Assembly (NCBI RefSeq): GCF_030463565.1
Contig: NC_134643.1
Location: 8,726,657 to 8,790,656 of the forward strand
DNA: 64,000 bases
Origin: Pelecanus crispus
Lineage: Eukaryota > Chordata > Aves > Pelecaniformes > Pelecanidae
Direction of reading: 5' to 3'
Part shown: positions 31,494-63,069 of the stretch, in pieces
How positions within the stretch are numbered: the stretch's first letter is position 1
How the letters are laid out: each line of letters starts with the position of its first letter
The notes under the pieces: generated by a model
The model's input: the letters and a program-made list of their open reading frames with translations, nothing else
What the model was told of the DNA's origin: nothing
The model's database searches: none
Program-made: the position numbers and the translations under genes

Positions 31494-31672
31494 CTAAAGG
31501 TCTGATCCGAGGTTTCCGCACGTACACTTCAGGAGCAGATCCTTAATCAGGCACACAAGTTCTGCTTTCCGTATAGACCCTGCTCACTTCTCCCCAGCCT
31601 GTCAGTACTTCCTGAGCTCAGCCTCTCTCATCCTCCTGGAGAGCTCCACGGATTTTAAGTCCAGTTTCCTTT
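31494..31672 (-). pseudogene. CDNF: CDNF exon 4 relic (C-terminal SAP-like domain)
   Basis: An intact acceptor (TCTTGCAG) is followed by a frame reading RKLDLKSVELSRRMREAELR, which matches the family's KKLDLASVDL...MRVAELR. After two in-frame TGA codons comes LVCLIKDLLLK and finally GSDL followed by TAG, corresponding to the family's LIKELAPK and C-terminal KTEL or RTDL ER-retention signal. From the first K after the acceptor to the final L, the relic and the human exon as I recall it have the same number of codons. One inserted codon near SRRMR is balanced by one lost near the family Trp. One TGA falls on the first Cys of the CXXC motif and the second Cys has become Ser. Confidence 0.85.
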
Positions 31673-32725
31673 CTGCAAGAGGAAAGAATGTGAGAGATGC
31701 TTTAGAGAGCACGTAAGTTTTCATGTTGTCTTTAACTCTTCTGTGCTGCTGGAGAAGAAAAAATCACCCAGTTCAAGCAAACCCTGCAGAGTGATTGCTG
31801 TAACGCAGGGGGTGGCAGAGTCGGGGAGGGCAGCTGCTGCACCCCAAATAACATGGGCTTGCAGTCCTGTTCCCTCCAGTGATCTGTCTGCAGCTCCAAG
31901 TATTTACAGCCAAGGACCAGGGCCTTGCCAGTCCATGACATCTCTAGAGGTGGTGGCACCAGCTCCTCTGTCTCTTCCCCATAGTTCGGGATCTCCACAG
32001 CCTTCCCCTCCCCAAGTGGGAAGGCTGTGGAATAAATCTTACCAGACACCAGAGAAATCACAGAGGAGAATGAGTCACGAGAAGTGCCCAGCCATGAGAA
32101 AAGCTTATGCCAACACTTGTGCTTTACTAGGACAAAAGCAGCAGATTCACAAGATACAAAGACACTGGAAATTGAGGCTTCATTCAGTCCATGGGACTGG
32201 CTGTTTATATCCTACATTCAGTTTTTATCTGCCATGAAAAACTATCAGGGTAAGAGGAGAGCAAGCAGGTTTTTGATGTACAAAGAAAGCAAGGCCTGAT
32301 TAACTGAAGAGGGAGAAGAGATTTCATTTATTCGAGTTATTTAAAACTCTGCAGTCTTTGTTAACAGCTGCTCAACTTGAACAAGCAACGTCTCTCTGAA
32401 GGAGTCAGCACTGCTCCTCCTTCACAGCAGAGCTGGGAAAGTGCCCATCCGCACGCATGAGTCACCCGGACGGGCCTCCAGCAAAGACTGCTCTGGCTGG
32501 GACGAAAGCGTAAACCCCAAACCCTTTACTTTTCCTGGCCTAAGCTGTAAGTAAACGAGAAGAGGGAGGCGCGTAGTACAGAACTATTTATTTCCCTTTC
32601 TGCTTAGGTTTAGAAGGGCTAAGGAACAGAAAGAGTCTGCCGCAGGGACCCAGAGGGGTAAACGAATGCGAACAGACAATGAGACCCCAAAGGCCAGCAA
32701 TTTGCTTTAAAACCTCAACCTGCCT

Positions 32726-32865
32726 TATCTGAGCTCACCAAGATGAATATCTGCCATCTTAAACTTTTCACAGATCTTTGGCAGAGGCACGTGGGCACCC
32801 ACCGTGCAACTGACTTCCGCAACCATTTTTGTGGGTATGTTACCGGTGGCTCCACAGTAACAGCA
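32726..32865 (-). pseudogene. CDNF: CDNF exon 3 relic
   Basis: A canonical acceptor (TGTTTTTCAG) precedes a frame reading CCYCGATGNIPTK, MVAEVSCTVGAHVPLPK and ICEKFK, ending in GELR. The family has LCYYLGAT..ATKI, EVS...HVP..KICEKLKK and ends in CELKY. The match covers the whole exon. One codon is missing in the CYYLG motif, a second is lost near the end, the last family Cys is Gly, and a TAA replaces the terminal Tyr. No GT donor follows at the expected place (AGATAAGG is found). Confidence 0.85.
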
Positions 32866-35257
32866 CTGAAAAACACAGGACAGGGAGTTAATGCCCAGAC
32901 AGAAGAGGGGGTGCTGCAAAGTGGGGAATGCTTTCACACCCCCAGAAGTCCATGGGAGCAGAAGGCACCCAAGTGAGGGGTGTTGACTGCCACAAGCCAC
33001 TTGCTAAGATCACAGGACTCCTTCTTCCATGGGGTAAAACATATAGCAAAGTGGAGGGCACAGCAGTGCCAGACCAGCTCGTAAAGGATATTGATAAAGT
33101 GCAAATAATGGATTTTCAAGGTGATATTGAATGATGTTACTACTATTTGGCAACATTTTGTTTAATTTTGTACCTATAATAAATCCTGAAGGTAAGCCTT
33201 GGATTGTGTCCACCTGTCACATGAGTAAACATAATGAATGTGCAATTAAATGAATTAATGAGTAAGGTGATACACCAGTGAAGCACTCCTCTTCATAGTA
33301 GAATGCATCCCATTGAAAGCAGTGGGGTTTTCCTACTAGCTTTTACAGTATAGGGAAGGTAAACAGACCACCTGTGGTTTTAAATCAAGGGTGAGAGTCT
33401 TCCACCTCTACCCATCTAATCTGTCCTGCCAGAAGCCATGGTAGATAAGCACTCTTCAGCACAGGAGGAGAAGGCTGATCCGCTGAAATCTCTGCACATC
33501 TTCTGCCCACACTGATTCACTGTTTCTCTGCACCCCAAGGAATTCCTGTTGGTTTGGCTCGTTTCTTCACTTTTCACTTTTATTATGACTGTAAGTTCTT
33601 CGAGCAGATCTTGTCTTTTTGCTCTGTGGTTGAACAGCGCTCAGAGGAATAACCTCTCGGCATGAAAACAGGCCAGGAAAATCCCCGAATGATAACCTGG
33701 GAAAATCCAGAGCTGAAGATGCAGTGCATGCCTTTCTTCAAAGGGTATGTCCATGGGAGAGATTGGTGCTGCAGATGTGTCTGCTGAAGTTGGCCTAAAA
33801 CTGCTTCTCGGTGGAGCAGGACTTGTCCCTTGTGAGCTACCAGAAAGCAGCGCGTCCTCTGCAGCAGCGCTTCCGTGAAGACCTCAGGGATTCCCCTCCC
33901 ACTTCCAAAGCAGTGCAGAGGCCATGCAGCACGACTGATTAACATCAGAGCGTGGAGAGATTTTACAGCACAAACTGCCTGATTGCACAAAGCTCCTGTG
34001 GTAGGATCTGTCGACATAGTGTGTCCCAGCTGCCTGGACCCCAGGTCTCCCTGAGCGAGAAGTCCTTCCGTCTCCACAAACACGTGCAGCTTTCCACAAA
34101 AGTGACAGCTGTTCTTTTAGAGGCAGTTATCTGGACCCAGGTCATTAAAACCAGAACATCACACAGTAAAAAGTATTGGGTTCCTGAAATACCTCTGAAG
34201 CCCTGAAGTTGCCCCCAAGGGAGAAGAGTGCGGCTGTCTGCTCACCAGCAGCACAGCCTCCCTCCTCTGCACCCTGGGCCCTTCCCAGCTTCGGTCTGGA
34301 AAGGTGGAAGGGGATTTCAGTGTATCTATTCAGTCATCAGCTGATGAGCTGCCAACAACTATGTTAATTTTCCCCTCTTGTAATAGGCCGTTTAGGGCCC
34401 CAGCCAATGACCAGGGAAGCTGCTGGAAAGAGTCTCACTGATCTCAATGGCTATCCAACAATATGCAGCCATATACGCCAAAAATTAAACACAGATCCTC
34501 CAAATTCGCTTCATGCAGGCCACAGGACTGTCCTCTGCTCCTCGTAATTATCATTATTATTGTCATTACTGGATTTGAATTAATGCCCGTGAGTGCAGAT
34601 GGACAGAGATTTTTATCAAACACAACTTCTGTTATTTAACTAGGACTTTCTCAGAACTTAAAACAAAGGAGAACGGTTCCAGATGCTGCTCTTTTCCTTT
34701 TGCATCCCCACAGCTGCTGACCAGCTATGGTGTCCACAGCAAAATCTGAATTTCTTTTAAGTGAATTGTAAAATCTGTCCAAAAATTCTTTACATACTGC
34801 AACAATAAAATAAAAACCTTAAGCCGAACAGCAGAAACTGGTAAAGCTGCCAAAAGAATGTTAACAAGTTAGCGAAAGACAGGGATCATTAACACTTAAA
34901 AAAAAAAAAATTACTGCTCTGCAGTTTAAAAAAAGAATTCTAACTTCATCTTTTAGCTTTATAGATAACAGTGGGTTTGTGGGAAAGGAAATCGTTCTGT
35001 CAGCTCTGCATGGATCCCATTAACACTTTTTTAATAAAAGGAGCTCAGAATCTATCAGCACTTTGATCTCAGTTCAATAAAGCTAATCTTAGCTTTGGTT
35101 TTAACATGGACATTTAATTGTGTTTAATCACCTTCTGCAAAAATCAATTTAGTTGACATGATACTGACCAGGACTGGTCAGCAGAGATAAGGAAGAGCTA
35201 TGTTCTAGCTACTCCATCCTATTACACTCACCTCTAAGCAGGCAACTAATTAATGTG
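32866..35257. other. Former CDNF intron 2, no gene seen
   Basis: This stretch lies between the exon 3 and exon 2 relics. The longest open frame is on the minus strand at 33583-34083. It has no recognisable domain and no clear splice sites, and I treat it as chance. Confidence 0.5.
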
Positions 35258-35430
35258 GTTATCCTCATAACACCCTTGGGAGGAAGGGAAAATGCTACTT
35301 TTTTTTTTTTTTTTTCAGATGAAGAACTCAAGAAACAGTTAAATTAAATGACTTCCTCAAGGTCACATAGTAAATCTCTGACAGTGCACAGAATGAACTT
35401 CTTGTTTCACGCTGGCACCCTCAGTCCTAA
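35258..35430 (-). mobile_element. MIR-like ancient SINE relic
   Basis: The plus strand reads TTTCAGATGAAGAACTCAAG, then ATGACTTCCTCAAGGTCACA and TAGTAAATCTCTGACAG. This matches the reverse complement of MIR SINE text (cagatgaggaaactgagg, gacttgcccaaggtcaca, cagctagtaag). It is preceded by CCTCATAACACCCTTGGGAG, corresponding to the CTCACAACAACCCTATGAGG of MIR. A T17 run is inserted in the middle. Such relics predate birds. Confidence 0.6.
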
Positions 35431-35729
35431 ATCAGTTCTTTGCCTAAAACTAAGCCATCTGTCACTAACTAACCTGACACTGATTGCAGCCTATTTTGGT
35501 AGTCGGCTCTTCTTAAACTGCTAGTTTAAACGCCGCTCAGTTTTGTATTGAACTTGCCCTGCAGAGTATAAACTTCATGCCAGTGCTCAATGAACACAAG
35601 GTTTTCCACCCAGAGCACAAAAGTGAATTTCAAGCATATTGTACCGTGGAGCTTGCTTGGAAAGCTCTCAGATTGCCCCATAGCACCCGTTGTAATTCAT
35701 GTCATAACTTAGGTCTGCGTTATTAACCG

Positions 35730-35880
35730 TAACATTTTATATTTACAGAGCATCCTCCAGCCAAGGATCTCAGTACACTTCCTATCTATTACTAAAACCT
35801 TTCAACATTCCTGCAAAGTGAATTTGACATCATTTAGGAGATGGAAAAACTGGGACACAGAGAAGAAAAAGGCCAAAAAT
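35730..35880 (-). mobile_element. Second MIR-like or related ancient repeat relic
   Basis: The plus strand contains AAGGATCTCAGTACACTTCC, then ACATTCCTGCAAAGTGAATT and GGAGATGGAAAAACTGGGAC followed by ACAGAG. The end is the same 'gatggggaaactgaggcacagag' text found in MIR-like elements. The 'aaggatctcaaagcact' text is common in ancient reptile and bird repeats. It lies about 300 bases from the previous relic in the same orientation. Confidence 0.45.
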
Positions 35881-37014
35881 TTAAAAAGAAGTTATTTGAA
35901 GATTTTTCATTTATTTTCCTTGAAAAAAACCCATCATTTGTATGCATGTTTAAAAGTTCTCAGACTTGACAAGAGTAATAAAGTTGTTCAGGCAACCATG
36001 ACCATCATAGATGTGCCCAGGCATGATAGTGCCTAATACGGTCTACAGCAATGCTCAAAACAGCAATGAGAATATTACTAATTTCTTGTTTTATTAACAG
36101 AGACTATACGTGCAATTATCTGTGGCACATGCTTATTCTTACTCTAAAGAAAATCATACATATTTGATTTTCATAAAAGCCAACAAAGCCTTGTCAAAGG
36201 TGACTTGTGCTAGTTCTCAGTTCTAGCTATGAAGTATGTTTGCTGTGTTTAATTAGCCCTTAGTGCCTCCTTACTCCTGTCAAGAATAATCTGGGATTAG
36301 CTGAATGGTGGCGGAGAAGAACGGTAGCGGAGTAACTTGGAAGAGGTTTGGATCTTCAGGACAACGCTACTTTCAGACAAACTGCGTCAGCTGGAGTCAC
36401 TGGGGGATCCCCTCGGGGTACTTCAGCGTGGGTCAGCAGCTCATCCAGTGAACACTGATCAACGCCCCAGGTACAGGTTGGAAGTTTGCTTGTTTCAGGT
36501 TGTAAGAAAACCATTTTTTTTCTACTTTGTGACTCAAGTTTGTGATGTGGAGTACAATAAAGGATGGTTTATTTTGCAGGCACTCAAAACTTTTTCAAGA
36601 AAAGAGAGAAAGAAAGCTAACATTCTTGACTTACACGCAAAAACAAATAGATGTTTAAAATGCTTTATGTCATCTAAAATACAAAAAAATCTTGGCATAT
36701 TCTCTGATAAGCACTCCGGTGTAAGTAAAAAAAATAAATCTGGCTTCAACTTTACTGCAAACCTACTGAGCTGCCAGACTAAACGTTGCAGATGAGTTGT
36801 AGCATTGCAATTACATGCTGCATTTATGCCACCTACAGGCATTAATACCAGCTTTTCAACAGGTTTGCCTGCCAAACTTTCTATGTACTTCTTTTTCAGA
36901 CTGCCATGAGAAGACTCCGTAGAAGTCAGCCCTGACCTTCAACTCATAAAAACATTCTGTTCAGCTTATTAAAAATTAACACAAGTATTTAATTAATCTG
37001 ATCCACTAACTGAA

Positions 37015-37121
37015 CTTCCCTCTTCCCTATCACTTAGGTACTGTGACTATGAAGCAATGAGGATACTGAAATCAACTTTATCAAGTGCCTTTTGTAATAG
37101 GTGGCAAGTGTCACAGCAAAC
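37015..37121 (-). pseudogene. CDNF: CDNF exon 2 relic
   Basis: The frame starting at 37121 reads VCCDTCHLLQKALDKVDFSI, against the family pattern VCKEFLNRFYK(S/A)L..DFS(L/I). VC, KAL, DK and VDFSI are retained, with two codons missing. The frame then hits TAG. Further along, out of frame, a stretch resembles the FCSHTKGKEN region. The base pair before the exon is GG rather than AG, so the acceptor seems lost. It is weaker than exons 3 and 4 alone, but order, strand and distance support it. Confidence 0.6.
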
Positions 37122-39879
37122 CCAGAAATAGCCTACAGCCACTGAAAGCCAGCAACTTTGGGGGTGATATACAGACAGACCTCCCAACAGCATGTATTCC
37201 TGCGCCCAAAATAAGCAATGCAAAAAATAATGATGGTGCAATTACTTCGAGGGATTTAGGCAGTGAGTCTGAAGAGCCTCTTTTTACGCAAAAAAAAACC
37301 CTCGTGGATGCTTTTATGAAGGCAAGCCATGGGGACACCAGTTTTCCATCAGTAGGACGTCGGCATCTCCAGCAGTAGGACTGTACAGCCTCACGGCGCT
37401 GTCTTGGGGAAGAGGCTGTTTTCGAAGCCGGGGGCAAGGGCCACCTGCAGGACCACTGTCCCGGTCCCCCGCAGCCAGGCTGTCCCGCAGCTCTCCTGAG
37501 AATCGACTCCACTGGCTCTGTTCACATCCCCAGGCTGGAGATGATCACAGGCCACGGTCTTGCAGCTGCCATCTCTAGCCTCCTTGGAGCTTAATTTCCC
37601 AAGAATTAAGTCAGAACATGCACAAGATAATTAAAAGAAGATCTCTCATCCTTTTTTCCTCACCCCAAGGGACATTTTAGAGTATATACTATTTACCAGC
37701 CGCAAACCAGTGTTGTTCAATAGAGACACTTACTTCCACTTTAAATAACTCAGCAGATGTTACTGCCTTTTTGCCATAATCTCTGTGGTTTTCCTGTAGT
37801 CAGCCTGCTACGGACAGTGCCAGGGGGATCCCTTTTTTTGCATTCAAGCCTCTCAGGCTGCCTGCGAGCTCTCAGTACAGAAGCAGCTTGGGCAAGCTCA
37901 TGCTGTACTGTGCTAACAGCTGGTCTGACGGTGGCTTGCCTGGTTTTTGGATGGCTGAGACATGTGCCACAGACTGGGAGAGAAGGGGCAGCTCTGATGC
38001 TGTGAAGGTTTGTGCCACTGCTTTGTCAGCTGAGAAATAATACTAGGAGGTCTCAGCAGAGTACCTGGCTAAATCAGAGGTGAGTTTGTTGCAGGGGAAC
38101 ATTGTGGGCTTGTTTGTTTGATGTAGGTACCTGGAGATGTGCAGGACTCCAGTCAGACTGGGGCTAGGTTTTCCTCCTCCTTCTGACTCAGAGGGATAGC
38201 TCTCCTGGGGGTGTGAAAGATTAAATTCTCTTCCATCCTGAAACCAGACTGCTGCTCGGACCAGTGTTCACCTGCTCAACCCCGCCTTTACGCCTTTAAT
38301 GAAGAAGTGTATTAAGGCTTCCACTTACAGAACTGCCATAACAAGCAGGGCAGCCTATTCCACTTTTATTTAGAAGTGGGTTGTTCACCCCATCTCTCAG
38401 CTCACTCAAGCTCAGTGCAACCTCAGAGCTTCTCATTAGCTGAGGACACCACCTGAAAAAATAGGGAGGGCACAGGCAGATAAGGGCTTTTCACTTCTCA
38501 ACCAACACTACTGGCCACCACAAACCCCTGCCAAGGCATTTCTTGCCAGCTTCTGCACAGGTTTGCTTACACCTGAAAAGAGCATTAATTGCTTTAGTTA
38601 AGATAAGCAGAACTTCTGTGTGTCCATCCTGATATGTCCATGGCATAACAACTGGAAAATAACCGTGGATGAGCTTAGTTGCATGGGAGATGTTAGCATT
38701 GTGGCCACAAGCACTTTTTGAGGCACAGATTACACATACTGGCCTACTGTCATGAATGGTGCAACTAGTATTAGGATTTGGGGGAAAGCACAGGAAATTC
38801 ATTGTTGGATGGGTTTTGTATTAGGGGCTTCTGTTCTCCTTTACCCTCCTATCTTCAGTGTCTCTCCTCAGACTCCCTCCATCTCTACCTTTGACAAAAG
38901 CATCACTTCTATCAAAAGCATCACTTCTATCATTCCTTCCTCCAGTCCCCACAGGTCTCTCCTGCTCTCCTCTACCCTTCTTCTCTTTTCATTCCTCCAT
39001 TTACAAGAGGAGGCAGAAAGGAACCACAATTTGGACACACTTCAAAGGTATTGTTTTTAATTGCGCAAGTTTCGCCTTTCTTAACGCTGCGATCATCTCC
39101 TGAGCTCCAGCCTTTGGTCAGACTTGAGCAAGCTCCGTTACTGAAAGGAAGATAGTCCCATGACTTCGGAAACCTAGGATGAGTTTTGGGACACAAAATC
39201 CCTTTGTGATTCCCTATAACTCCTTTCATCTCTATGTGATCTTAATGCATTCCTTTAACCCTTCAGCATATCATATACAACGCAAGGCTAAGGACAATCT
39301 TCACTTGTGCATGACACAGTGAGACGGTACTGCACGGCACTCAGGCTCCCTATGGAAGAGCGGCAAACGTGCACCCAAACCCACAGAAGTGCCGTCACCT
39401 CTACAGCGAGGCCGCACGCCCGAGGTACCTGCTCCCCGCTACGGCAGAGAACTGTGCTGTGCCCCTTACAGGGCCACAGGAAATCCGAGGCGCCTCGGGC
39501 CGCCATGCAGTGAATTCCGTGCGAATGACGTTAAATTCCCCCAGGACTGATCAGAAATGGCTGCCTTTTTTTCCCCCTGTGGTAATGCCAAGACGGGTTT
39601 CTCCAATACAAGTGCAACGTAACGAGACACAGAGCTTTGCGTTCAGGCACTGGTTATGCCTGGTCGGATTATGCACAGTCAGCGCTTCAGGTTGACTGCT
39701 TCGCTAATAACTGCAGCACTTGGGTAAGAAAATATTTACAGCGTCTCCACGTGCCTCATTGCCTGCCATCAGACCATGAGAGAAGCCACTGACATAAACC
39801 ACACGCCCCAGCACACGCATGAAATAGCTTCGCTCGCCCTTCTCCATTTCAGCCTCCATTTCCCCAGTGCTCGGGGCCC
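37122..39879. other. Former CDNF intron 1 and flank, no gene seen
   Basis: No CDNF exon 1 (signal peptide plus the DCEVC start) was found on the minus strand. A short tandem duplication of AAAAGCATCACTTCTATC lies at about 38896-38931. Only unsupported short open frames are present. Confidence 0.5.
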
Positions 39880-40560
39880 TCTGGGCTTAGACAAACGGCA
39901 GCCGCGCGGGCCCCGCGCGCCGCCTGCCGAACTCCCCTCAGCGGCCGCTCGCCGCCAAGCCGCCCGCGCCGCGCGCACGCACTCTGCCCCGTTGCCATGC
40001 GTGATGACGCCCCTCTCTCGATTTTTCTCGTTGGCCGCTCCGCCGATGACGGCACCTCCAAGTGCGCCTCTCCGTGATTGGTTTGCGAGAGAGCGCGGCG
40101 CGGGCTTTGATTGGCGGCCGGGGAGAGGAGGGGAGCGGGATTGGTTGGGAGCGCGGTGCATTGTGGGGCGGCGGGCGCGCGTGGAGCTGATGGCGGCCAT
40201 CGGTGTTCACCTGGGCGCTACCTGTGCCTGCGCCGCCGTCTATAAGGTGAGGGGCGGAGGGGCTGCTGGGCCCGCTCCGCCCGCCCCGCCCGCCGTGCCC
40301 GCCGTGCCCGGGGCGGGACGAGGGCGGCGTGGCCGCTCGGGAGTCCTTGCCGGGAGGGAGGGCCGTGCCCTGCCGTGCCCTGCCGTGCTCTGCCGTGCCC
40401 TGCCGTGCCCTGCCGTGCCCATCTCTGTTCCCTCACGGCGCTGCGGGGGTCGCGCAGCGAGTAAAGCCCTGACGGGGCGCGGGGTGCCCTGAGGGGCGGC
40501 TCACGGGTGATGCCTCTGTCCGCAGGATGGCCGCGCCGACGTGGTCGCCAACGACGCCGG
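39880..40560 (+). promoter_or_regulatory. HSPA14: CpG-island promoter of HSPA14
   Basis: A GC-rich, CpG-dense block covers the 5' flank, exon 1, intron 1 and exon 2. There is no TATA box. Three inverted CCAAT boxes (ATTGG) start at 40077, 40110 and 40140, spaced 33 and 30 bases, which is typical of NF-Y arrays. Upstream lies GTTGCCATG (39991-39999), an RFX-type half site, closely followed by TGATGACG (40002-40009), a CRE-like motif. A second GATGACGG is at 40045. In other vertebrates this island also drives CDNF leftward, but no CDNF exon 1 is seen here. Confidence 0.8.
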
Positions 40561-43500
40561 GGACAGGGTCACTCCTGCGGTCGTTGCTTTCTCGGAAAGC
40601 GAGGAGGTGAGGCTTCCTTTCTGCGGAGGTGGTTTGGAAAGGAGGGGAGCTCTGCCTGTTGCTCACTTTTTTTTTTTCTTCTTTATTTTTCATTCAGGTT
40701 GTTGGCTTAGCTGCAAAGCAAAGTAGAATAAGAAATATCTCAAACACTGTAGTGAAAGTAAAGCAGATCCTTGGGCGAAGGTAAGAGAACAAGTGTGAAA
40801 GGGAAAGTGAGAAGTTCAGTTTTCCCCATTAAAGCTGGTCAGTGAAACATAGCCTCAGCACTGGTATCGAAGGTGTTTTAATCTAGTGTGATAGTAGTTA
40901 AGTTGACTTGGCGTTGACAGAAGAGTATGTCAGATCTTAAAAATTAATTACATTATGTACTTCTTATTCTACATTTCATTCCAGGAGTAAAGAGATGCGG
41001 AGTATTTTATATCAGAATTTGGGAAATCAAATTGTGAAATTTATTAGCAAGTCACGTGTATGTTTTTGATATATACTTAAGTTGCTTAACTAAAATGTCT
41101 TTTTGTTACCTGGATGTTTTCCTGTGGCTAAAATCCACTGTGGTTTTAGTTGCATGAAACTTTATATTGCCTTTTGTTGCAATCATGAAAGACGTTGACG
41201 TAATGCTCGTTGTGATTCTTCAGTTAGTGGAGCTGTGACGATTTGCACTGGCAGTTACAGTGATACTAGAACTAAGCTTGCTGGTTTAGGTCTGAAGTCA
41301 GAGATGTGACAAAACTTTTCAGTGGTAACCTAGCTGTGTGTTATTCCTCTGAAAGGAGCTGACAAGATGATGTCCATTCTGATGTATTTCTCAGCATATT
41401 TCATACACATAACTTGACATAGTTAGTAGAGGATTAAGGGTAGTCAGCTTATTGCTGCCACGTTATTTCAGTCAATACAACAAAAGTGCCACTATAAATC
41501 TTTTATAATGCTTATTGGGGTAGCACGTTAAAAAAATGTGTTGGTTTTTGTTTTCCCTTTTGACTAACTAGTAGGTATTTTTTTCTATCATTAGTTTGGG
41601 GAAAGGCGATTTAAGGCTACCAGCAGTCAGAACTTGGGTTTTCTTCTCCTGTATAAATATATCCATAGAGTGGAAACAGAAATTTTGGTTGAAGTATAGC
41701 TTCATATGCTGTAGTCATTATAAGGAATACCAGCAAGATGAATTTGTGCAATTATCCTTGAGCATGTGATTTATTTTGTTATTTTGAATTTGTCTGGACA
41801 GCTCTGGCGACCCACAGGCAGAGAAATATATCGCAGAAAGCAAATGTTCAGTGAGTATGATCTAGTTTTTCTGTTGTTCTCAGACTAACTTGTATCATTT
41901 TATACTGTTGTTCTTGGCATTGTTGGTGCCACACCATGCGTGTGTTCCGTAGTGATGAGCTCTCATTATATGAGGTCCATTTGCTGCTGTATAGAATGTT
42001 TATCTTTTTTATAAAGTAGAGAACTTCACTGTGTTCTGAGATCTGCCATCATAATATAGTCCAACAGAAAAATTATATGTATCTCTTGGCCAGTCTGATT
42101 TTTAATATATTTGGGTAATAGCGTTGTGGTGTTTCTTAGCACTGGTAGAAGATGCTCAGGTTCCAGCATCATGTGATAAAAAACGCTTCACCACCTGATT
42201 TAGTCTCAGTGTTTAATTTAAATAATACTGTGCTTGTTACTAGAAACCTTTTTGCAAAACAAGAGGAAAAATTATCCTGGGAAATACGTTCCTAAAGAAG
42301 GAATGAGCCTTTTCTGGTTTTTGACTGTTTGTATTAACAGGCTTATGTAGATTGTTGTTATTTTTCTTAAGGAATGTAAGCAGGCAAGTACTTTTGTTCT
42401 AAAAATTGCTTTTGTACTGAGGAAAACTGCTTAATAGAAAAAGAAAGTCTGGAGTCTTTAAGTCCATATCAATGTTACTGTCATGTCTGTTGGATAATAG
42501 AAGGGGGTTTTTGTGATCTTTGATAAGCATCTTGGAAGCATTTATTCTCTTGTAACTAATGCAGAAAGCATTTACACAGTCCCATGGTTTTTACTTGAGC
42601 AGAAGCCAAATTAACATTACTTCTTGTTAATAACCAAATTACGTATTTAACAAAAGTATGTTGGTTTTGCTTACAGATAATTGAGAAGAATGGAAAACTT
42701 CAATATGAAATAGATAATAAATTTATTAACCCAGAAGATGTGGCAAAACTAATTTTCAGTAAAATGAAAGGTATATAATAAGTAAAATCATAATATGTTT
42801 TAGTTTTTTAAGCTGTCCTCATCTTTTTAAGATGTGGTATATTGGTTTTTTTGCTTTTAATCAACATGTTCTGCCTATGTTTATAAACAGAAACTGCTCA
42901 GTCTGCATTGGGTTCAGATGTAAATGACGTTGTTATCACTGTACCGTTTGATTTTGGAGAGAATCAGAAAAATGCCCTTGGGTAAGAGGATTAAGATTTT
43001 TCTGTTATTTAACATGCCTAAAGCAGACTGGCTGGCAGATCAGCAATGGGAATTCTGCTGCTGGACTTCAGCTTGCGACTATCAGTCAAGACATTGGGAT
43101 GCTATTTGAATGGGGAAAATGTGAAAGTAGGAGGTAAAAAATCCTGACTTCAGAAACTTTTCATGGAATTTACTGTTGTAACCAAAATGAAATTCTGAAT
43201 GAACTGAAGTGAGAGGGAATTTTGGTATCATCAAGGATAGAATGTCATTTCAGATGTGTTTATTTGTAGTGGAACTTCAGTGTCTGCTTTGAAATGCAAA
43301 TAGCTTTGAAATGCAAATAGTTTCTCATCCCTCTTCCATAATTTCCCATCCCTTCATACAACAGTACTCACCAAACCAAATGGCATTTCATGACTTTACT
43401 GAGGACTTTTATCAGAGAGCAGGTCAGAATACACACCAATATTCTTCTTGGAAGTTCTGCTTTGAAGTGTGGCTGTAAAAGTTCTTTCATATGAAAACAT

Positions 43501-46500
43501 AAATAGGCTTAAAGCTGTGCGTAACTGGCAGCATCTGTTTCTGTTTTCTAGTATGTAGAAGCCATTATGTTGAACTGTCTTGAAATACTTAAAGCACACT
43601 TAAAGTTGGTCATAGAATATTAGTGAGCTGGGTAATTGCAGTATGTATAATGAAACATTCTATTGCTTTGCCATACAAGTTTCAAAATAACTTCAAAGTG
43701 GAGGAAACAACTTGTAGGGCAGTCCCAGGGTTACTGAAGTTTCAAGAAAACACATAAAGAAAATGTGAGAAGTGGGGTGCGGTAACTTGATTTGGAAGTA
43801 AAAGCAATTTTCCTAGCGTGGTATCTGTTGAAATAATGTACCAAGAACTTTTAATACCACACCTGAAGATAAGTTAGCCAGTTTGACTGAGGGTGGAGTT
43901 GCTGGTTTTTATGGGGCATGTAGACTGATACATCTGTGTTTTCTTTGATAATAAGCACACAGCAGATCCAATTACCTGAAGAACACAGTAGCGACTGAAC
44001 TTCTTGATACCTTTCTTTTCCAGTCACTTTGCTTTGTTAATACTATGTTGTAACCAAGTTTTGAGTTGGTGACACATGTAGTTCAGATGAAATCTTAATA
44101 GTGTGTGTGACTATAGTGAAATATTAAAGTAAAATGAAATGCTGTTATGCCTTATCACAGGGAAGCAGCTGCAGCTGCTGGATTTAATGTTATGAGATTA
44201 ATTCATGAACCATCTGCAGCTCTCCTGGCTTATGGAATTGGCCAAGATTCACCCACTGGGAAAAGGTAAAATCCTAATATTTTACTGCTTAAATTTAAGC
44301 TGCTGTACTTAAATCCTGAGAAATCTTAAACGAGGGAATGCTGTGTTGCCTTAGCAGTCAATACCAAATTAATGATTTGAGGCTTGTTCTTTTTTCTCTC
44401 AATAAAACCAATAACAATTTAGAAGTTGTAAATCCGTAGTGTTTTAAGTCCCTTCATTCTGGTTTTTATTTTTTTAGAATTGTCTTCAAAGATTTGTCCC
44501 CAGATTCTGTCTTGCTCCTTAATGAGCTGATTGGCTGGAAGAAAAATGCATCCCTTCTTAAACAGATTGTGGTATAGCTAGTTTTTAATTGCGGGAGATG
44601 GGGTTATTTTACATGTGGTAGAAGAACTAAAGTCAAGTTCCTGGGTTCAGTAGGTGCATTGGGTTTCCCTTATGACTATTCAAATAATTCACAAGATGGC
44701 ACATAGTAATTCACAAAATGGCAAAAACTGCTGTCAGTGCAAACATGTCTTTTTTCTTCTTGATTGATTTTTTTTTTACCCTTCTCATAGAATTCTTGAT
44801 TATAATCTTGAATGTAATGTTCAGTTCTGAATTGTGTTGTAGGAAAAACATTGGCTACTCTCACTGTGTGAAACAGACTAATTTTGTTCTTTAGGGAACA
44901 TTGCCAAGTAGTCAGTGGTACTAAGATGCATTAAATACAGACACCCCAAATCAAATTCTTTTGACAAAACTGATTAAAACCTGCAATACATTATATGGTG
45001 GTCATGTTTTTAGGAAGTGTGTCAAACATAACTTTAGGTGGCTTGTATTAATACTACTTTTTTTTTTAAACCATGGCAGCAATGTGTTGGTTTATAAACT
45101 TGGTGGAACATCGCTTTCTATCACAGTCATAGAAGTAAACAGTGGAATATATCGTGTGCTTGCTACGAACACAGATGACAGCATTGGTGGAGTTTGCTTC
45201 ACAGAAGCTCTAGCACAACACCTAGCTTCTGAATTTCAGAGGTGGGTTTTGAATTCCAAGCATGTTGCTGTTAGGACAGGAGCTTCATTATCTGATGCTT
45301 GCTTTAAAAAAAAAAAAAAAAATTATATTAGGTTGTCAGATCTAGTAGACTGACTGCGAGTGAAATGGCTCAAAGATATTAAAGGAGCATTCAGTTGTTG
45401 GGGGCCAAGGAGGAAGACTGGGAAATACTTGGTTTTGGGTAGGTGTTGCCTGAAGTTGGTGTTGAACTATAAGGGCTCAGCTATGAACTGTTCTGTGTTT
45501 TAAGTGATGTATGTGACTGCAGGCTGGTTACCTCCTTTCAGTCACCAGTTCTAGGGGTGGCAGGGAATTCACCTGTGTGAGTTTTGTTTGTTTTTCTTGT
45601 TGGCATGAAGGACTGTGGCAGGGCTTGGGTCATCAGACTGAAGTCTGTATGGCACGTCATCCTGTGATGAACAAAAATGAAAAAATGCATTACTGTTAGC
45701 TCTAGTGATTTTGAGATCGTCAGTTGTGTACTGTCACAGGAGGAGATGTTTTGGATGAAACATGCTATTCTGCTGACATGCCTAATGTTCAGTGTTCTAT
45801 TTCTTAATCTGTTGTTAAAATTACTTAACTAACTTAACTTAACTAAAGGCCTTTTCTTGCTGTTCCTTGCAGTCACTTACAGGATTTGTTCAGCTGAGAA
45901 ACTGTTCAGAAAGACTGAAATCTGTATGATAAACGCTAATGCCTGAGTTCAAGGTGCCTCTACGCAGTGTTCTGTAGTTGAAACTGAAATAGCCACTTCT
46001 ATTCTTTGCGAGCTTTTAATAGTGACATTGTAGATAATACTAAAATGTCTACAGAAAAGAAGTTCAATAGCTTTAACCTGTTTTTCCTTTCAGGAAGTTA
46101 GTGTTGTCACTCAAATGCCTGCCTTTCTAAACTGTGCTTTTTTTTTTTTTTTTAAATGTAGGTCTTGCAAACATGATATCAGAGGAAATCCCAGAGCCAT
46201 GATGAAGTTAATGAACAGCGCTGATGTTGCAAAGCACTCGTTATCAACCCTGGGAAGTGCAAACTGTTTTGTAGATTCATTGTATGATGGATTGGATTTT
46301 GATTGTAATGTGTCCAGGTAAAACAAATAGTGAAGCTACTGCTTTTGCATAAAACTGTGCTTGAAATATTTCTAGGGGGTATTTAGGATGTTCGGTAAGC
46401 TTTGATTTTTTTGTGGCATAAATTTTAGAAACAGAAGTCAGATAGAAGACAAAACTTGCTTGCTTGCAGCTTTGTTTCATATTGATGGTTCTGTTGTGAT

Positions 46501-49500
46501 GTGATCTGTAGTAGTTAGGGTGGTAATACTAGCAATGTTGCCCTCATGGTTAGAAAATGAAGTGTGAAATGGCACAGGGAGACCTCACCTTTGGAGTCTG
46601 GTTGTTGATGAGAGGGGCATAGATGCTGTAGTTACTCAAGGTGGGAGGGTGTTTCCCCCTATTATTGTTTTTGTTCTTGTTTTTTCCTTAAAGAAAAGAA
46701 GACTTTTGGACTCTTCCAATGAGCTCCAGAGTAATGTGATAGGAGTTGTGGAAGTCTTGATGTTGCCTCTATTTGACAGACGGAGTCAAAAGATGTTTTC
46801 TTTTTGTTCATACTGCTGTCCTACTCTAAGTCTTTTCTCTCTTGGAATGATATCTTAATGAGATGTTTAGCTAATTTTGATTGCTCTCCCAGTCAGCAGC
46901 AGCTCTAGCAAAATGAAACAGACTTTTCAATTCCAGAGCTGTGCATCCACTGCTGCAGCAGTTGGATCTGGTAAAATAAGGCACAGTATGTTTGCAAGCG
47001 TGAGCAGCAATGCTGTGTAATTTGTTTGTCTCAGTTTTGGATAAGGATGGTAGTCCTGTGGACTAGTGTTGCAGAATTTGACTTGCTGTATTCATACAGA
47101 GTAAAACTTCATCTTCAGGCTTGAAAGCCCAAAGCAAGCACAAGTTTGTTTTTCACTTTGCTTGAGTACCTACTCCTTGTGTGCAAATCGGGACACAGCT
47201 TGATTTACCTCTGAAAATTCAAGAGGCACATTTGAGTCTTTGTGTCTCCATTTTAAAGATGATGAAGCAGTTCCAGGATTTTTGCTTCTTTTTTTCACAT
47301 CTGAGTCAAGACAACAATGCTGTCTTTTGTCAAGACAACAATACTGTTTTTTCTCTAGAGTACGCTGAAGAAGAATGAATGTGTGTTCCATGTAGGTGTT
47401 AATGATGGAATCAATAGCACAGTTATTTTCACAACAGCAACAAAATCACTTCTGTGAGATTAATAATTGGGAAATAAGATTTAAAAAAAAAAATCCCTTA
47501 GTACTTGGTGTAGCTGGTATGTAGAGAACCAAGTATATTCTAAAAATGATTGTTCTTCCATTGCAGGTATTTGTCTCTAATGGATGAGATGACACTTCTT
47601 GAATTTTTTTTTTTTCTTCTAGGGCCAGGTTTGAACTTATCTGTTCTTCACTTTTTAGTAGATGTGTAGAAGCAATTAAAAAGCTCTTGCAGCAAGTTGG
47701 ATTTACAGCAGATGATATTAATAAGGTAATAATAGAAATTATTTGTGTGTAGCATGCTTTATAACTCCACGAGGAGAATATTTATGGGGCCTGGTTTCCT
47801 TGCAGACTGAGATTATTTCATGATGTGTTTAAGCATTTTTGGCTCAGATACAACGAAGTATGTAGACTCAAAACTTTTGAACTCCTATCTTTGCTTTGAT
47901 TTCAGTTTTGTGAAGTTAAGTATAAGGTAGAGTCAGAGTCAGTGATGTGTTTTTACTGCTGTATATTGAGTAAACGGTAGAGGATTTGTCTCTGGTGTGT
48001 TTGTGTAACTCTTGGTAGAGCTGAGGATTACCTCTAGGTTTAGTATATAGACTTCCTTCTGCCTTCACTGAGCTTTGGATGGGGTTTTCTGACACTTCTG
48101 AAGAAAGCCTGAGTTTCGACTCTTTTTCTTACGAGTTGAACACCAAGTGTCTACTTGGTGCCTGCGTTCTTCCTTGTAAGCTTAAACACAGGAACATATT
48201 AGATGCCAAACCATAGTGTGTTTTAATGCCAAAGATGGTGAGTAAAGTAGGAAACACTACTAGGTTCATTCAAATGTCTTTTTTGCTTTGATATAAGAGA
48301 GTAACTTCAATCTCAACCCCTCTGCACCTGTGTGTGGCAAATAGTGCTGCATTTATTCCTGGTGGAGTTGGCGCGTAACTTCTGCAGCAAAAGTTAGCTG
48401 GTGCTTTTAACGATACTTGATGCTGTTTCAGAATCTTCATTAATGTTTGCTGTGTCACATCTGAATTTCACTGGTAGGATAATGAAGTATCCTAGGCCAT
48501 TGTTCAGAGAAAGTCTTTTGTTTTCTGGTGGCAGTATTTTTTAAGTGGCCCAATGTGCTGTCCTCTCAGGCCTTAATGCTTTGGGGGGGGGGGGCGGGCA
48601 GGGGCACTTTAAATGTAAAAATAAATGAACCTAATTTACAACTCTTAAGTTATGTTTTACGTGAAGAGAAGTGGGAATTAGCTTTGTTTCCAGATCTGGT
48701 TTATCTCCACAAAGTTGCTGTAATAAGAGAATGTTTTTAAGTGTGTTTTTTTTCCTCTTGCGCAAGTTCAGTAAGTGGCAGCTGGTTGTCAGTGACATCC
48801 CTCAGGATTTGCTACTGGGGCTAATACCATTTAATGTCTGTATTAATAACACAGATGATGGGGTAGCGTGTGCTATCAGCAAGTTTGCAGGCAGTACCAA
48901 AATGAGGGGAGCAATCAGTATCACTGTAGGTCAAGGCTGCTATTCAGAGGGGTTGAAAAAGGCAAGAAAAATTTATATAATAGAATACTTCAGTTGGAAG
49001 GGACCTACAGTGATCATCTAGTCCTCTGGAGAACATCACAAAGATCAACAAAGACAAATGTAGAGTCTGGGATGGAATAATTCTGTGCAGCAGGACAGGC
49101 TAGCAGTTGCTAGAAAGCAGCTTTGCAGGAAAAGACTTGGGGGTAATTTCTATTCACTTGGGGGTTCTAACAGGCAGTAAGTTTAATAGCAGTCAGCAGC
49201 GTGCCTCTGCAGCAAAGGCGGCCAGCTGCGCGCTGGGCTGTAATAGCAAGGGTGTAGCCATGGGCATAGGAGAGCATTTCTTTCCCTGTTTGGCTTTTGA
49301 ACAGGGTGTCCAGATACAATCTCATAATTTTTGGGCTTCAGGAGGTGAAGGGTACTGACTGGAGCCAGTCTGGGTGTTTGCTCACCTGTAAGAAGACAAG
49401 GCTCAGGGAAGACTAGTGCTGCCTATAGTTACTTGATAGGAGGGCATACATGAGACAAAACCTGACTTACTCCTTACTGTGGGTGCATGATGGAAGGGTG

Positions 49501-52500
49501 AGTGGCAAGCAGCACAAGTTACAACATGGAGAAATTTTAGATACCAAGAAAAGAATTTGTAGTGTGAGGGTGATCATATGCTGAAACAAGGGCCCACAGA
49601 GTCTGTGGGATCTATATCCATGGAGATAAGGTCCAGAGCAGCCTGTTGTAACTGGACCTGTCCTGGGCAGGAGGTTGGACTAGACTTCTGGAGGTCCCTT
49701 CCAGTCTTGATGTTATTTTATGATGAATTCTTCAATTTTTAAAATGTTACTTAATCTAGCTGATGTTTACTATAAGAAACACATTTTCAAGGTATCGTTT
49801 CAAACTTACAAGCTATTTCCTTGAATTTCAAATACAAAAGTAACAGAAGTCGAGCAAAGATGGCATCAATTTTTACTTCAACAGCTACAGATGATAAAAT
49901 ATCCCAGAGCAGTTTGCGTTTCTGTATTGCAGATTGACACCTGCCTGTTTTATCTGTCAGAAGAAAGATTTGAAATCATTAAGGCATGTTTTCCAGGTAG
50001 TCCTGTGTGGTGGGTCTGCTCGAATCCCAAAGCTGCAGCAGCTGATCAAAGACATTTTCCCAACTGTGGAATTACTGAATTCAATTCCTCCAGATGAAGT
50101 TATTCCCATTGGTGCCGCCATAGAGGCAGGAATTCTGTTAGGGAAAGAGAATCCTTTGTTAGAAGAAGAAGCACTCTTTATTGAGTGTTCCGCCAAAGAT
50201 ATTCTTCTTAAGGTAAGGCTAAAATTATTTAACTTAGAAAATCTTACTGCTGCAATGAATATACAGCACTACTTATGCATGATTGATGTTAAAGAAACTG
50301 TATTGTTTTATTATTAGTTCTACAGATTGACTATTGATCAGCAGTAAGTGGTAACTTAGGTTTATTGATAAAAAAATTGACAGGAGAAACTCCTTGATTT
50401 TAAGGGGAGATAAATTGTGTCTCTGCTATGTTTTAATAGCTGGACTTCTTAATTTATTTATAGGAATGCCTTTTTTTTATACTTGATGGTATGGTACATG
50501 TGCCAGAGAGAATGAATCTATGAATCTTGGATTTCTTTTCTTATGGAGCTGTTATAACACTTCCAGCTCACTAACATACTTAGAGAAAGGCATGAACTTT
50601 CTTTTTTCTTTTTAAAGGGAGTAGACGAGTCAGGGGCTGACAAATTCACAGTGCTATTTCCATCAGGGACACCATTACCAGCTCGAAGGCAGCACACCCT
50701 GCATGCTCCTGGAAACATGTCTTCTGTGTGCCTTGAACTATATGAGTCATTGGGGAAAAGTCCCATGAATGAGGAAGGTAAATTTGCACAGGTGAGTATG
50801 TATATATGGTCATATGCACTTTTAATATCGATGACTGGGAAATCAAGTGCATCAGAGGAAAAAAAAAAATTAAAACTAAAACCAATCCCACCCCTACCAA
50901 AACTTCTTGTTACAAAATTAGAATGACGTGCATCTCTTCAGGAATGGCTTTTAAGCATTCTTCTAAAATGTGTTATGAAGTACTGAAGCACTTTAAGAAA
51001 TTGAAGTCTCCCTTTTGAATTTCTAAATGGCTGAGTTTGATATTTGGCACTACTGTAGTAAGCTCACCTGGCATGAGAGATCATAACCAGTCATTCCAGT
51101 AGTACGTGGATCTCCAAAATTTTAGAAATAAAACTGCTGGAGGTTATGATGTAGCTAGTGTATGTACTGTTGGTTACTTTCTGATCTTCCTACATTGGGC
51201 AGGTTCTTGGTATTAAATACCACATTTGATTTTTCACAGTGGTAAGATGATATGACTAAATCCTCACCCGATATAAAGATATGACTCAGGAGTCAACCTA
51301 CTGAGAGAACACAGCTTGTTTGAAACGGTGATGATGTGCTTACCTTGGCTTCGGTGCACTTACAGCATCAGGGAGGGGGCAGATGTGGCTGAAATGGATG
51401 GAATACTTGAGAAAATTGTTATTCCACCTTGGTTCCGGCCAAAGATCTTTAAGGGGATAGGGAAAAGATGTTACCTGATAATTACAGAACTGATCCTAAG
51501 TAAAGGAACATGCTTAGCTCTTACTGTAGTCTGTGGGAGTTGTAGGTACTACAGCTATCTTAGTGATAGACCTTGGAACAAAAGCACTGAAACAGTACTG
51601 CAAATAGCTAAAAATACATAGATTTGCACTACAGATGAATGAAGTCCACTAGGGCATGCTTTGGTGTTGAATTATTAGTATGAGATGCTAAACAGAATGA
51701 GTTGTGCACCTTAGCTATTGTGTCACTTCCATTAAACTGCTGTGCAAGGATTTAGAGAACTTTAACGTCTTTTTTTTTTTTAATAGATTGTACTCCAGGA
51801 TTTAGATAAAAAGGAGGATGGCCTACATGATATACTAACTGTACTCACAATGAAAAGGTACCCAAAATATTTGTTGTTCTGCTGTTTAACTTGCTATGTC
51901 ACACTTCTTACAAGCACTCTTTTCTCCTGTTACAGAATGTGTAATTTTGTGTTGTGAAATTTCAGCATTTCATTGCTTAGAGGGCTGTGTCCTAGCAGGG
52001 GTAAATTCTGTAGGAATGTGTTTTTTATGCAGTACCTTCTGTGCTGTCATTGTTTGATTCCTAAAGAAATGAAACTTAACACAGTTGTATAGATGATTTT
52101 TATCAACTTTTGAACTGCTGATCAGTTTAACCATGCTTGAGAGCAGTTGATCTCAAGTTTCCTGTGAAAGGGCTCGGGGAATTCTGTTGAATGCCCACAC
52201 TCTTAAGAAAGACTCAAGTACAATCGGTCGTTATTAGTTGCTAAGGAATCCATGAAGGACTTCTCCTGTGCAGCACTTGTGATGAAAACCTGTGGCTCTG
52301 TCTTTTCAGAGACAGGGTTGTTAAGCATGAGAAACAACACCACGGGAAATCAGGCTTCATAAATCTACTTTTTACAGAATTACCTGGTTATTATGGGAAG
52401 GTATGAAGTATCTTATAGCAGGGTGGGGAATGGGGATGACACTATATTGAAGAAACATCTCTTTCTTAGGTCTTAATAGAGGTGCTTGGGATCATTTGAA

Positions 52501-53520
52501 ACAGTCAAAATAGTTTATAAAGATATCAGAAGGTGGAATTCTAAGTAGTCAAAGTATGTTTGTCTTCTGAGGACTGTCCTGAAGTTCATACTGCTTTTCT
52601 AAATAATATGAAAGTTGTCTAGATGTTGCTGAAAAACGAAATCCCTACTTGCGATTTGAGTTCACAGTACTTTGTTTTCTTATGTTAACTATCAGGTGTA
52701 TTAATGCTCTGTTAATAGACTTCACCTAAAATACCTTGTTAGTCATACAGAGCACTTAGCACTGATAAGAAAAACATCTTGGGGGTTATATATGCAACTG
52801 TGTAGTGCAGAAAACCTGCGTTATTTTAAAGGGTTTTTTAGTAATATTTAGGTGAAAAAGATGAGGGAAGGTTCCCTAGAACACATCTATTTCTATCTAA
52901 ATATTACATGTGACTGTTGTATGTCTAGATGAAGTACAATTCAATATTGTCTCTAATCCGTGGATTTTGAAAATTAGGGGCTTCCTCCTTGAAGGAGATC
53001 CTTGGTATTTAAAGACTATTACTACTTTTAAAAAGTCAAGTTCTCATGCTTTGAGAAGACATGCTTATCTGTTGGTTGCTGTTACTCAGAGCTCTCAACA
53101 TGAGTATTTTGAATAATATTACTGTATATTCAATTTACTAAACCTGTACTAAATGAACTTAGTTACAATATTTAAACATGTTCCTGAATCTGTTCCACCA
53201 TATGTAGAGAAGATACATGCTTTAATGGAGAGCAAGAAGTGCCTATCTAAATACTCAATAAACTAAACTTAATTTCATAGATTAATTTTGTCTGTGTTGA
53301 AGCATTTTCTTCCCTGGATATTTTGATGCTCATCTTCTTTCCTTTTGTTTGCATGAAGACTTGCTTATCCTCTGGAACATGCTGTCACGTACCAAGTGTT
53401 GTGTTGCGATAGTCCTAAACTTACCTTTCTCTTTTATCTAGGGATGGGTCCTTGCATGTTACCTGCACAGATCAAGATACCGGAAAGTGTGAAATCATCA
53501 CTGTTGAAGTGGCGTCATAG
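40190..53520 (+). CDS. HSPA14: HSPA14, ribosome-associated Hsp70-like protein (506 aa)
   Basis: Coding exons are 40190-40246, 40526-40606, 40698-40780, 41802-41850, 42677-42770, 42891-42981, 44161-44265, 45080-45241, 46162-46317, 47623-47725, 49997-50212, 50618-50791, 51787-51857 and 53442-53520. Every intron is GT-AG, the phases agree, and the total is 1521 bases. HSPA14 (Hsp70L1) pairs with DNAJC2 (MPP11) as the cytosolic ribosome-associated complex that helps nascent chains fold. The N-terminus [19 protein letters not shown] gives the first phosphate loop, degenerate as is usual for this protein. [14 protein letters not shown] (exon 8) is the second. [16 protein letters not shown] (residues 328-343) is the adenosine and Hsp70 signature motif. 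The chain stops after a short substrate-binding part ([12 protein letters not shown] near the end), with no lid or EEVD, as expected for the family. Compared with human (509 aa) the loop after YEID is about four residues shorter. No disabling change is seen. Confidence 0.97.
40361..40420. repeat. 10-bp minisatellite in HSPA14 intron 1
   Basis: Six consecutive 10-base units of TGCCGTGCCC, the first and third with one substitution, lie inside intron 1 within the CpG island. They create a misleading Ala-, Pro- and Cys-rich open frame. Confidence 0.95.
43287..43321. repeat. Tandem duplication carrying two octamer motifs
   Basis: In HSPA14 intron 6, a 17-base unit containing TTGAAATGCAAATAG is repeated directly. 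Each copy holds a perfect ATGCAAAT, the POU-domain octamer. No evidence of function is visible beyond the motif. Confidence 0.8.
48583..48594. repeat. G12 homopolymer in HSPA14 intron 10
   Basis: Twelve G in a row followed by CGGGCAGGGGC form a potential G-quadruplex on the RNA-like strand. Homopolymer length may be uncertain in the assembly. Confidence 0.9.
48766..49735 (+). mobile_element. Old CR1 LINE in HSPA14 intron 10
   Basis: The plus-strand frame at 48671-49021 contains [20 protein letters not shown] and [16 protein letters not shown], matching the CR1 reverse transcriptase ([20 protein letters not shown], ...LSKFADDTK). The YADD region is degraded. The 3' end (TTGGACTAGACTTCTGGAGG, then TCCCTTCCAGTC, ending ATTTTATGATGA) is a clear CR1 tail in the same orientation. 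The middle portion is heavily diverged. Confidence 0.85.
48976..49027 (-). mobile_element. Short CR1 tail inside the intron 10 CR1
   Basis: TAATAGAATACTTCAGTTGG and AAGGGACCTACAGTGATCAT, then CTAGTCC, on the plus strand is a CR1 3' tail in reverse orientation. It interrupts the plus-strand copy. The copy is very short (about 50 bases). Confidence 0.75.
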
Positions 53521-61500: not shown

Positions 61501-63069
61501 AGGAGGTTTGGGGCACTGGCGAGTTCTGTTGCAGCCTGACTGATGTTAGCATTTCAGGTCAGGCACTGCATCTCCCTAACACAGCTCTGTGGATTCTAGA
61601 ACAGACGGCGCTCACTGAGGTGTAGCACCGACAGGGTGCACCCAGAAGCTTTTGTGGGCACCTCTGGTACATTACCTCCTTCAGTGTTCCTGGCTCACAC
61701 CAAGGGGTTGCGGTTGGAATGTCTGACGAGGCAAATTATTTTGAAGATTTGTCACAGGAATGCCCAAAGGAATGGTCAGGCTACCATTAAACAAAGCTTT
61801 CCTTTATTCAAAGGTATTTACATGGCATTTCACGTAAACTATTTTCAAAGTAATCTGCTAGTGATAGTTACAAAGACAGTTGTAACAGCTGAGCGGTCTA
61901 AGGCACCATACATTTGACTCCGGATTCTGGTGTCTGTAGGCCTCAGTTGTGGATGTAGGTCCACAGGATGTACAGATGTTTAGGACAGAAGAAGAACAGT
62001 CTGAAGTTTACTGCCGTTTTGCTAGGCTGGATGCTTTGATCATTATGTGGAGACTTCAGGAAACAAAGTTCTTGATGAAATACGATCAGCTCTTTGATAA
62101 TTAAGAAAGTAATTTTTTAGAGTGGGAACCATCATTCACTGGAACAACCTCTCCAGGGAGGTGGTGGAGTCCCCACCACCGGAGGTTTTTAAGATGGGAT
62201 TGGACAGGGTCCAGTTGCCCACGAAAGGTTGCACCAGTTGATCCTTTGAGGTCCCTTCCAACTTGGGCTGTTCGGTGATTCTTCGATCACTGATCTTTCA
62301 TTCAGTGTTCAAGGTCAGGTTGGATGGGGCTTTGAGCAACGTGATCTAGTGCAAGGTGTCCCTGTCTACAGCAGGGGGTTGGACGAGGTCGTCTTCAAAG
62401 GTCCCTTCCAACCCAAACCATTCTGTGACTTAATTTTTTTTTTTTTTTTTTTTCAGTATAATAAAAAATTCTTGAGGTTTGGTGGCAGGGGTGTGGTGCG
62501 TGTCCAACTTTGCGTGCAAACCATTTATCCACAACAGCGATGTATTGTTGGCCCCACTACTCAGTTTTCAGAGGAGCGCATCTGTACTCCAGAGCTGTAC
62601 TTCCTTGTAGAAGCTCTCTTTAAGTGCTGACAAATTGATCCTACTTAAATCCTTAAAACTCCTCTTTCTTGTGGTGTCTGCAACACTAACGTTCAAGGCA
62701 GGCTGCAGTCTCAGCCAGCCAGTGTGGATGCAGACCTGAGGGTACAAGGCTCGAGTTTGTCAGGCTTTGGATTCTGACACGTGCGCTAGGTCTGCTGTAA
62801 GTAGTCGTAATGTGTGTGTCGGTAGAACTGGAGTATAGCTTCACACACAATTCTTTTAAGAACTGGGGTGGTAGAAGGCTTTTTGAAGCCATTTGAATAC
62901 TTAGCACAGTTTCAGTCTGTCTTTTAAAACTTCTTTATTTGTGTTTATCTGTGTTACAGGTTCAATAGATCTGACGACAGACTCTGCTGATGGTCTTAGC
63001 CCATCCAGAAAGAGGATCAGAACTGTCTGTAAATGCGGAGCTGTGTGTTGCAGAGGCTATCTCAACTGA
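54905..63069 (+). CDS. SUV39H2: SUV39H2, histone H3K9 methyltransferase (407 aa)
   Basis: Coding exons are 54905-54923, 56047-56192, 57185-57856, 59603-59749, 61344-61473 and 62960-63069, in total 1224 bases with consistent phases and GT-AG introns. The product trimethylates lysine 9 of histone H3 using S-adenosylmethionine and builds pericentromeric heterochromatin in the nucleus. The chromodomain spans about residues 43-101 and includes W64 and W67 of the aromatic cage. The pre-SET domain holds nine zinc-binding cysteines (187, 189, 192, 197, 198, 225, 229, 231, 235). The SET core follows, with NHSCDPN at 326-332 and FDY at 366-368. The post-[11 protein letters not shown] (395-402) lies near the C-terminus. 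The short N-terminus MEGWRGAWYVPCL fits the bird form, and the length equals what I recall for chicken. Oddities: Pro at residue 245 where relatives have Gln or Arg, and a weak donor after exon 5. Confidence 0.97.
54927..54952. repeat. SUV39H2: GGC triplet repeat next to SUV39H2 exon 1 donor
   Basis: About eight GGC triplets begin three to five bases after the exon 1 donor (GTGAGG). If intron 1 is retained, the frame continues as [10 protein letters not shown], a poly-alanine tract, and stops at about 55055. Confidence 0.9.
60994..61031. repeat. Perfect 18-bp inverted repeat with 2-base loop
   Basis: In SUV39H2 intron 4, TTTGTAGGTAAATACTAA (60994-61011) is followed by CC and then by its exact reverse complement (61014-61031). 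A further GGT/ACC pairing is possible beyond a one-base bulge. It is not part of a repeat family I recognise. Confidence 0.97.
62115..62290 (+). mobile_element. CR1 3' tail, first of two in SUV39H2 intron 5
   Basis: A plus-strand CR1 tail runs from TGGAACAACCTCTCCAGGGA, through GGAGTCCCCACC and GATGGGATTGGACAGGGTCC, to GAGGTCCCTTCCAACTTGGG. It ends in GTGATTCTTCGAT, a decayed tail octamer. Confidence 0.85.
62305..62433 (+). mobile_element. CR1 3' tail, second in SUV39H2 intron 5
   Basis: A second plus-strand CR1 tail of a different subfamily starts right after the first. It runs from GTTCAAGGTCAGGTTGGATG, through GTGTCCCTGTCTACAGCAGG, to GGTCCCTTCCAACCCAAACC, and ends in ATTCTGTGAC followed by a T-rich run of about 20 bases. 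Confidence 0.85.

Follow-up and report, generated by a model that had tools for sequence, protein, structure and literature searches.

A CDNF pseudogene beside intact HSPA14 in the genome of Pelecanus crispus

Introduction

CDNF (ARMETL1) protects dopamine neurons in other vertebrates, where it stands in the gene order CDNF-HSPA14-SUV39H2, and it is a treatment candidate for Parkinson's disease, its normal role being unclear. A 64,000-nucleotide stretch of the Pelecanus crispus genome (C1:8726657-8790656 in an assembly of 1.314 Gb and 310 contigs; hereafter the window) raises the question of what has become of this gene in a bird: whether the broken coding remnants beside HSPA14 are those of CDNF, whether the gene is dead, and whether a working copy persists elsewhere. 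The evidence comes from one genome assembly of a single bird. Globin exons of this assembly point to a bird: when one alpha and one beta translation were compared with PDB chains, six doubled alpha chains headed the alpha matches (95-98 bits per copy in the alignments listed), the best of the other alpha matches carried the label alpha-A or alpha (up to 134 bits), and the best beta match was 2zfb (154 bits), a parrot haemoglobin. The letters of the human CDNF, MANF and HSPA14 queries are provisional; those of CDNF and MANF agree with PDB chains across exon 3 and the greater part of exon 4. Our analysis indicates that the remnant is very probably CDNF itself, dead at its ancestral place as a unitary pseudogene (one copy, introns kept), its status as a pseudogene being close to certain.

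Remnant exons of CDNF

A tblastn search of the window with human CDNF recovered three exon remnants in order on the minus strand. The strongest match is exon 3 (32724..32865), with an expect value (E) of 3.7e-8 and a length of 142 nt, the same as that of exon 3 in the paralogue MANF. Exon 2 (34680..34796) was matched in two pieces lying in two frames, VCKEFLDRFYNSL-KRNSDFAVDTI and LVSSCGDAKGKEQHL, with a joint E of 2e-5, and measures 117 nt compared to 128 nt in MANF. Exon 4 (31494..31672) gave an E of 0.003; when read through, it can be aligned with the C-terminal domain of human CDNF, and a frameshift alignment has 24 identical residues out of 47. The frameshift-tolerant scores of exons 2, 3 and 4 (96, 103 and 78) lie well above the respective shuffle maxima of 38, 35 and 37 (40 shuffles each), and the Pfam ARMET_N model scored the exon 3 remnant at 32.6 bits in a whole-genome search, compared to a cut-off of 26.9. 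The original prediction of exons 2-4 in this order and on this strand was thus correct, but its upper limit at 37121, presumably meant for exon 2, has to be moved, as exon 2 is located at 34796-34680, about 2.3 kb away. The stretch at 37.0-37.12 kb, a candidate for exon 2, was rejected, giving no tblastn match up to E 10 and bearing a weak chance resemblance.

Two introns are retained on the minus strand, intron 2 (32866..34679, 1814 bp) in phase 0 and intron 3 (31673..32723, 1051 bp) in phase 1. The introns of MANF in this genome have phases 1, 0 and 1, and the acceptors and expected donor points of the remnant stand in the same phases. Together with the 142-nt exon 3, this shows that the remnant is the original intron-bearing gene. 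A retrocopy is ruled out by the two introns and by the ancestral locus, in keeping with the earlier description of a dead original. The remnant lies head-to-head with HSPA14, followed by SUV39H2, which is the predicted place of CDNF beside an intact HSPA14.

Disabling lesions

In exon 2, an 8-nt net deletion located after the DTI motif breaks the frame, and one more codon is missing, which may be harmless; the acceptor AG at 34798-34797 is intact, while the donor dinucleotide at 34679-34678 has changed from GT to GA. The final full codon of exon 3, encoding Tyr in both human CDNF and MANF, has become TAA, the donor at 32723-32722 has changed from GT to GC, and the conserved Cys of the QICEL motif is lost. 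Exon 4 carries two frame-breaking deletions of about 1 and 2 nt, the exact places of which are ambiguous; they throw the middle of the exon out of frame, and the original frame is interrupted by two internal TGA codons. One codon has been inserted and the CXXC motif is lost in the same exon, the stop codon of which is still present at the expected end (..GSDL, then stop). The acceptors of exons 3 and 4 retain AG. In-frame stops and indels, as proposed for this locus, are present. The proposed breakage of splice sites holds for the two donors with identifiable positions (GA and GC) and for none of the three acceptors.

The family has eight conserved cysteines, one of which belongs to exon 1. 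Of the seven expected in exons 2-4, four are kept and three have disappeared, among them the pair of the CXXC motif. This loss indicates that the remnant cannot be a working CDNF, as expected of a dead orthologue.

Assignment to CDNF

In a frameshift-tolerant alignment, the remnant is identical to human CDNF at 69 of 132 positions, compared to 57 of 132 for human MANF. Diagnostic sites were defined as those at which the human CDNF residue differs from both human MANF and the MANF of this bird. Exons 2-4 contain 32 such sites, at which the remnant is CDNF-like in nine cases and MANF-like in two. That the remnant could be MANF itself is ruled out by these residues and by the location of MANF elsewhere, on contig C7, with four open exons.

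Several observations weigh against a dead CDNF. Considered by itself, exon 3 is no closer to CDNF than to MANF, with 20 of 46 residues identical to the former and 21 of 46 to the latter, and its nine diagnostic sites include no CDNF-like and one MANF-like residue. The same exon is open through its first 46 codons, and its GC donor alone might still splice. The ruin is incomplete, given that all three acceptors survive. Finally, the lesions are known from the assembled letters of one individual of one species, and a rival reading is that of a live gene disfigured by assembly or consensus errors. We regard such a live gene as exceedingly improbable, since two donor changes, a nonsense substitution, the lost cysteines and the disappearance of 38 of 90 conserved residues are not made by sequencing errors, and the adjacent HSPA14 has an unbroken reading frame of 506 residues between its ATG and its stop codon in the same assembly.

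Search for other copies of CDNF

Whole-genome searches, in which only the best candidates (5 to 27 per search) were scored, revealed no second CDNF in the 1.31-Gb assembly when ARMET_C, ARMET_N, human CDNF and the translation of the remnant were used as queries. The ARMET_C model found one place, exon 4 of MANF, with the remnant exon 4 escaping detection, and ARMET_N found two MANF exons and the remnant exon 3. Human CDNF without exon 1 retrieved three MANF exons, the remnant exons 3 and 2, and a chance match (E 2.96). With the translation of the remnant as query, four rows came from the remnant and the others were three MANF exons and two chance matches (E 1.0 and 3.7). The three MANF exons found share 55-67% identity with human CDNF, and we infer that an intact CDNF, if in the assembly, would have scored above MANF. 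Human CDNF, used in place of the reptile and bird queries that had been proposed, thus recovered the remnant in the window and no intact CDNF elsewhere in the assembly.

MANF itself is intact at C7:31841877-31846734, with four open exons encoding 180 residues, next to a gene that resembles RBM15B. Its tail reads RADL, compared to RTDL in human, a change in the endoplasmic reticulum (ER)-retention tail. MANF is thus the only intact family member detected in this genome, and may be so in the lineage, as had been anticipated.

The remnant could in principle be one of two copies, a duplicated pseudogene with a working CDNF elsewhere. Assemblies can miss GC-rich genes, and hidden genes of this kind in birds are the subject of two reports (PMC12954441, PMC8449477). 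We consider this highly improbable, as the searches brought up no other copy though the more distant MANF was found each time, and the remnant occupies the ancestral locus, which is the expected seat of a working copy.

Exon 1 and the CpG-rich region

Exon 1 was not recognised in the stretch expected to hold it together with intron 1 (34797..40189, minus strand). A tblastn search with human CDNF and mature human MANF gave no match in 34.8-40.2 kb up to E 10, and ungapped scans of 34.83-40.6 kb with exon 1 of human CDNF and of this bird's MANF reached scores of 28 and 35, respectively, compared to shuffle means of 31.8 and 29.3 and maxima of 44 and 38 (20 shuffles each). A pattern of the exon 1 end plus donor matched the window 19 times, with 14.7 matches expected, and none of them fell within 34.8-40.2 kb. 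A second, guessed pattern had no match and is uninformative. A lone ATG at 38933 precedes a hydrophobic stretch with no further likeness to exon 1. This exon may escape detection because it is short and variable.

The region of about 39.75-40.75 kb, at the start of HSPA14, is rich in CpG, with observed/expected ratios of 0.83-1.14 in four 250-bp bins. Together with the three intact acceptors, it would suit continued transcription of the dead gene from a promoter shared with HSPA14, yielding a non-coding RNA that has taken on a new function. We hold this to be very unlikely: HSPA14 alone accounts for the CpG island, no Rfam family was detected in the window at gathering thresholds, and no constraint is visible, family-invariant sites having decayed in all three exons (15 of 21 kept in exon 2, 20 of 34 in exon 3 and 14 of 27 in exon 4).

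Decay and age of the loss

At 90 sites human CDNF and human MANF share the same residue, of which the pseudogene keeps 52 and the MANF of this bird 82. Excluding four gap or frameshift columns, the counts are 52 of 86 and 79 of 86 (Fisher p 1.7e-6), indicating that drift in the remnant has reached sites retained by a working member of the family. Some of this gap may have arisen before the loss, since a living CDNF might change faster than MANF, the standard used here.

A simple neutral simulation gave 0.12-0.30 changes per site since the loss if 9% of the sites had already changed before it, as in MANF. The corresponding range was 0.10-0.25 with 15% changed beforehand; with none, it began at 0.18 and extended to 0.35 or more, 0.35 being the top value tried. 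Neutral rates in birds are 1.9e-9 and 3.3e-9 per site and year. The decay therefore suggests an old loss, very roughly 36-158 million years ago from 0.12-0.30 and 30-184 million years ago over the whole range tried, the estimate being crude as it derives from a single sequence, no outgroup and provisional human letters. A decay of about 0.12-0.30 agrees with the gene having been lost around the time of the main radiation of modern birds or earlier, and also with a younger loss.

Neighbouring genes and other features of the window

HSPA14 (40190..53520, plus strand) has 14 coding exons with all 13 junctions of the GT-AG type. Eleven of 13 tblastn matches to human HSPA14 have 72-89% identity, and the other two, which run into introns, have 50 and 60%. 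The exon at 42677-42770 (plus strand) is four residues shorter than its counterpart in the provisional human HSPA14 sequence, with the frame intact. A tandem array of 5.9 copies of a 10-base unit (40362-40420) lies in intron 1 of HSPA14, within the CpG-rich promoter region. Further downstream, exons at 57089..61622 (plus strand) carry a chromodomain, a pre-SET domain and the start of a SET domain within a single open frame, another frame supplying the end of the SET domain; from this domain make-up and the usual gene order we take the gene to be SUV39H2. Adjacency of cdnf and hspa14 is also described for a flatfish bacterial artificial chromosome (PMC6579814).

A search of the window for FAM107B, expected on the other side of CDNF, gave no match at E up to 1 with the short human isoform as query (provisional letters). 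A 165-codon open frame at 13574-14068 (minus strand) has no Pfam match up to E 1 and might, we presume, contribute a 5' coding exon to a long isoform of FAM107B. Pieces of a long interspersed nuclear element (LINE) with long open stretches lie at 2646-5377 (plus strand), with Exo_endo_phos and RVT_1 matches in Pfam in the two pieces scanned; we presume it to be a rather young CR1 element. Open frames at 20567-21337 (minus strand) and 22901-23637 (both strands) resemble by eye the coding end of this LINE.

Discussion

Combining these analyses, it may be proposed that CDNF once occupied its ancestral locus, in divergent orientation to HSPA14, and was inactivated by frameshifts, a premature stop codon and the destruction of splice donors. 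The subsequent decay would most likely have been neutral, with MANF presumably carrying the remaining ER-chaperone and neurotrophic role. The lesions, their position, the intact MANF and the outcome of the searches for a second CDNF are direct observations on the assembly; we infer that function was lost, that this happened tens of millions of years ago and that MANF provides cover. Unitary pseudogenisation is a familiar route of gene loss, and the interesting question here is the age and spread of the loss. CDNF may have died early in bird evolution, leaving all or most living birds to rely on MANF alone for dopamine neurons and the ER stress response, in addition to the reported loss of the dopamine transporter, a tentative extension that we would place somewhat short of an even chance.

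No report of CDNF loss in birds was found in the open-access literature at the level of titles and the starts of abstracts, a body of text in which most subscription journals are not represented. Term searches found CDNF in none of the main texts of PMC4290089, PMC12954441 and PMC8449477, the supplementary gene lists of which lay outside this search. A further paper, PMC6358605, has passages on MANF in mammals. A vertebrate lineage long without CDNF would represent a natural knockout, raising the questions of whether MANF has taken over, whether the ER stress response of birds has changed, and whether the loss is tied to their unusual dopamine system, reported to lack the dopamine transporter (DAT; PMC4894405).

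Compared to CDNF of human and other vertebrates, the remnant is alike in the residues of exons 2-4, in its divergent place beside HSPA14 and in its intron phases, the last being compared via the paralogue MANF. It differs in its frameshifts, stops, changed donors, lost CXXC motif and lack of a recognisable exon 1. With MANF of the same genome, CDNF shares the four-exon plan, the intron phases and the ARMET_N and ARMET_C domains, whereas MANF is intact and located on another contig. A parallel outside the family is the gene encoding DAT (SLC6A3), which is reported to have been lost in birds, crocodiles and lizards (PMC4894405). Both are losses linked to dopamine neurons in sauropsids, and in the case of DAT, as described there, a family member provides cover (PMC4894405). 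In a lineage whose dopamine system is altered, the loss of CDNF would not be out of place, which we offer as a thought and not as a result. The two cases concern different genes and pathways with no demonstrated causal link, and while DAT is described as missing, the ruins of CDNF are still visible beside HSPA14.

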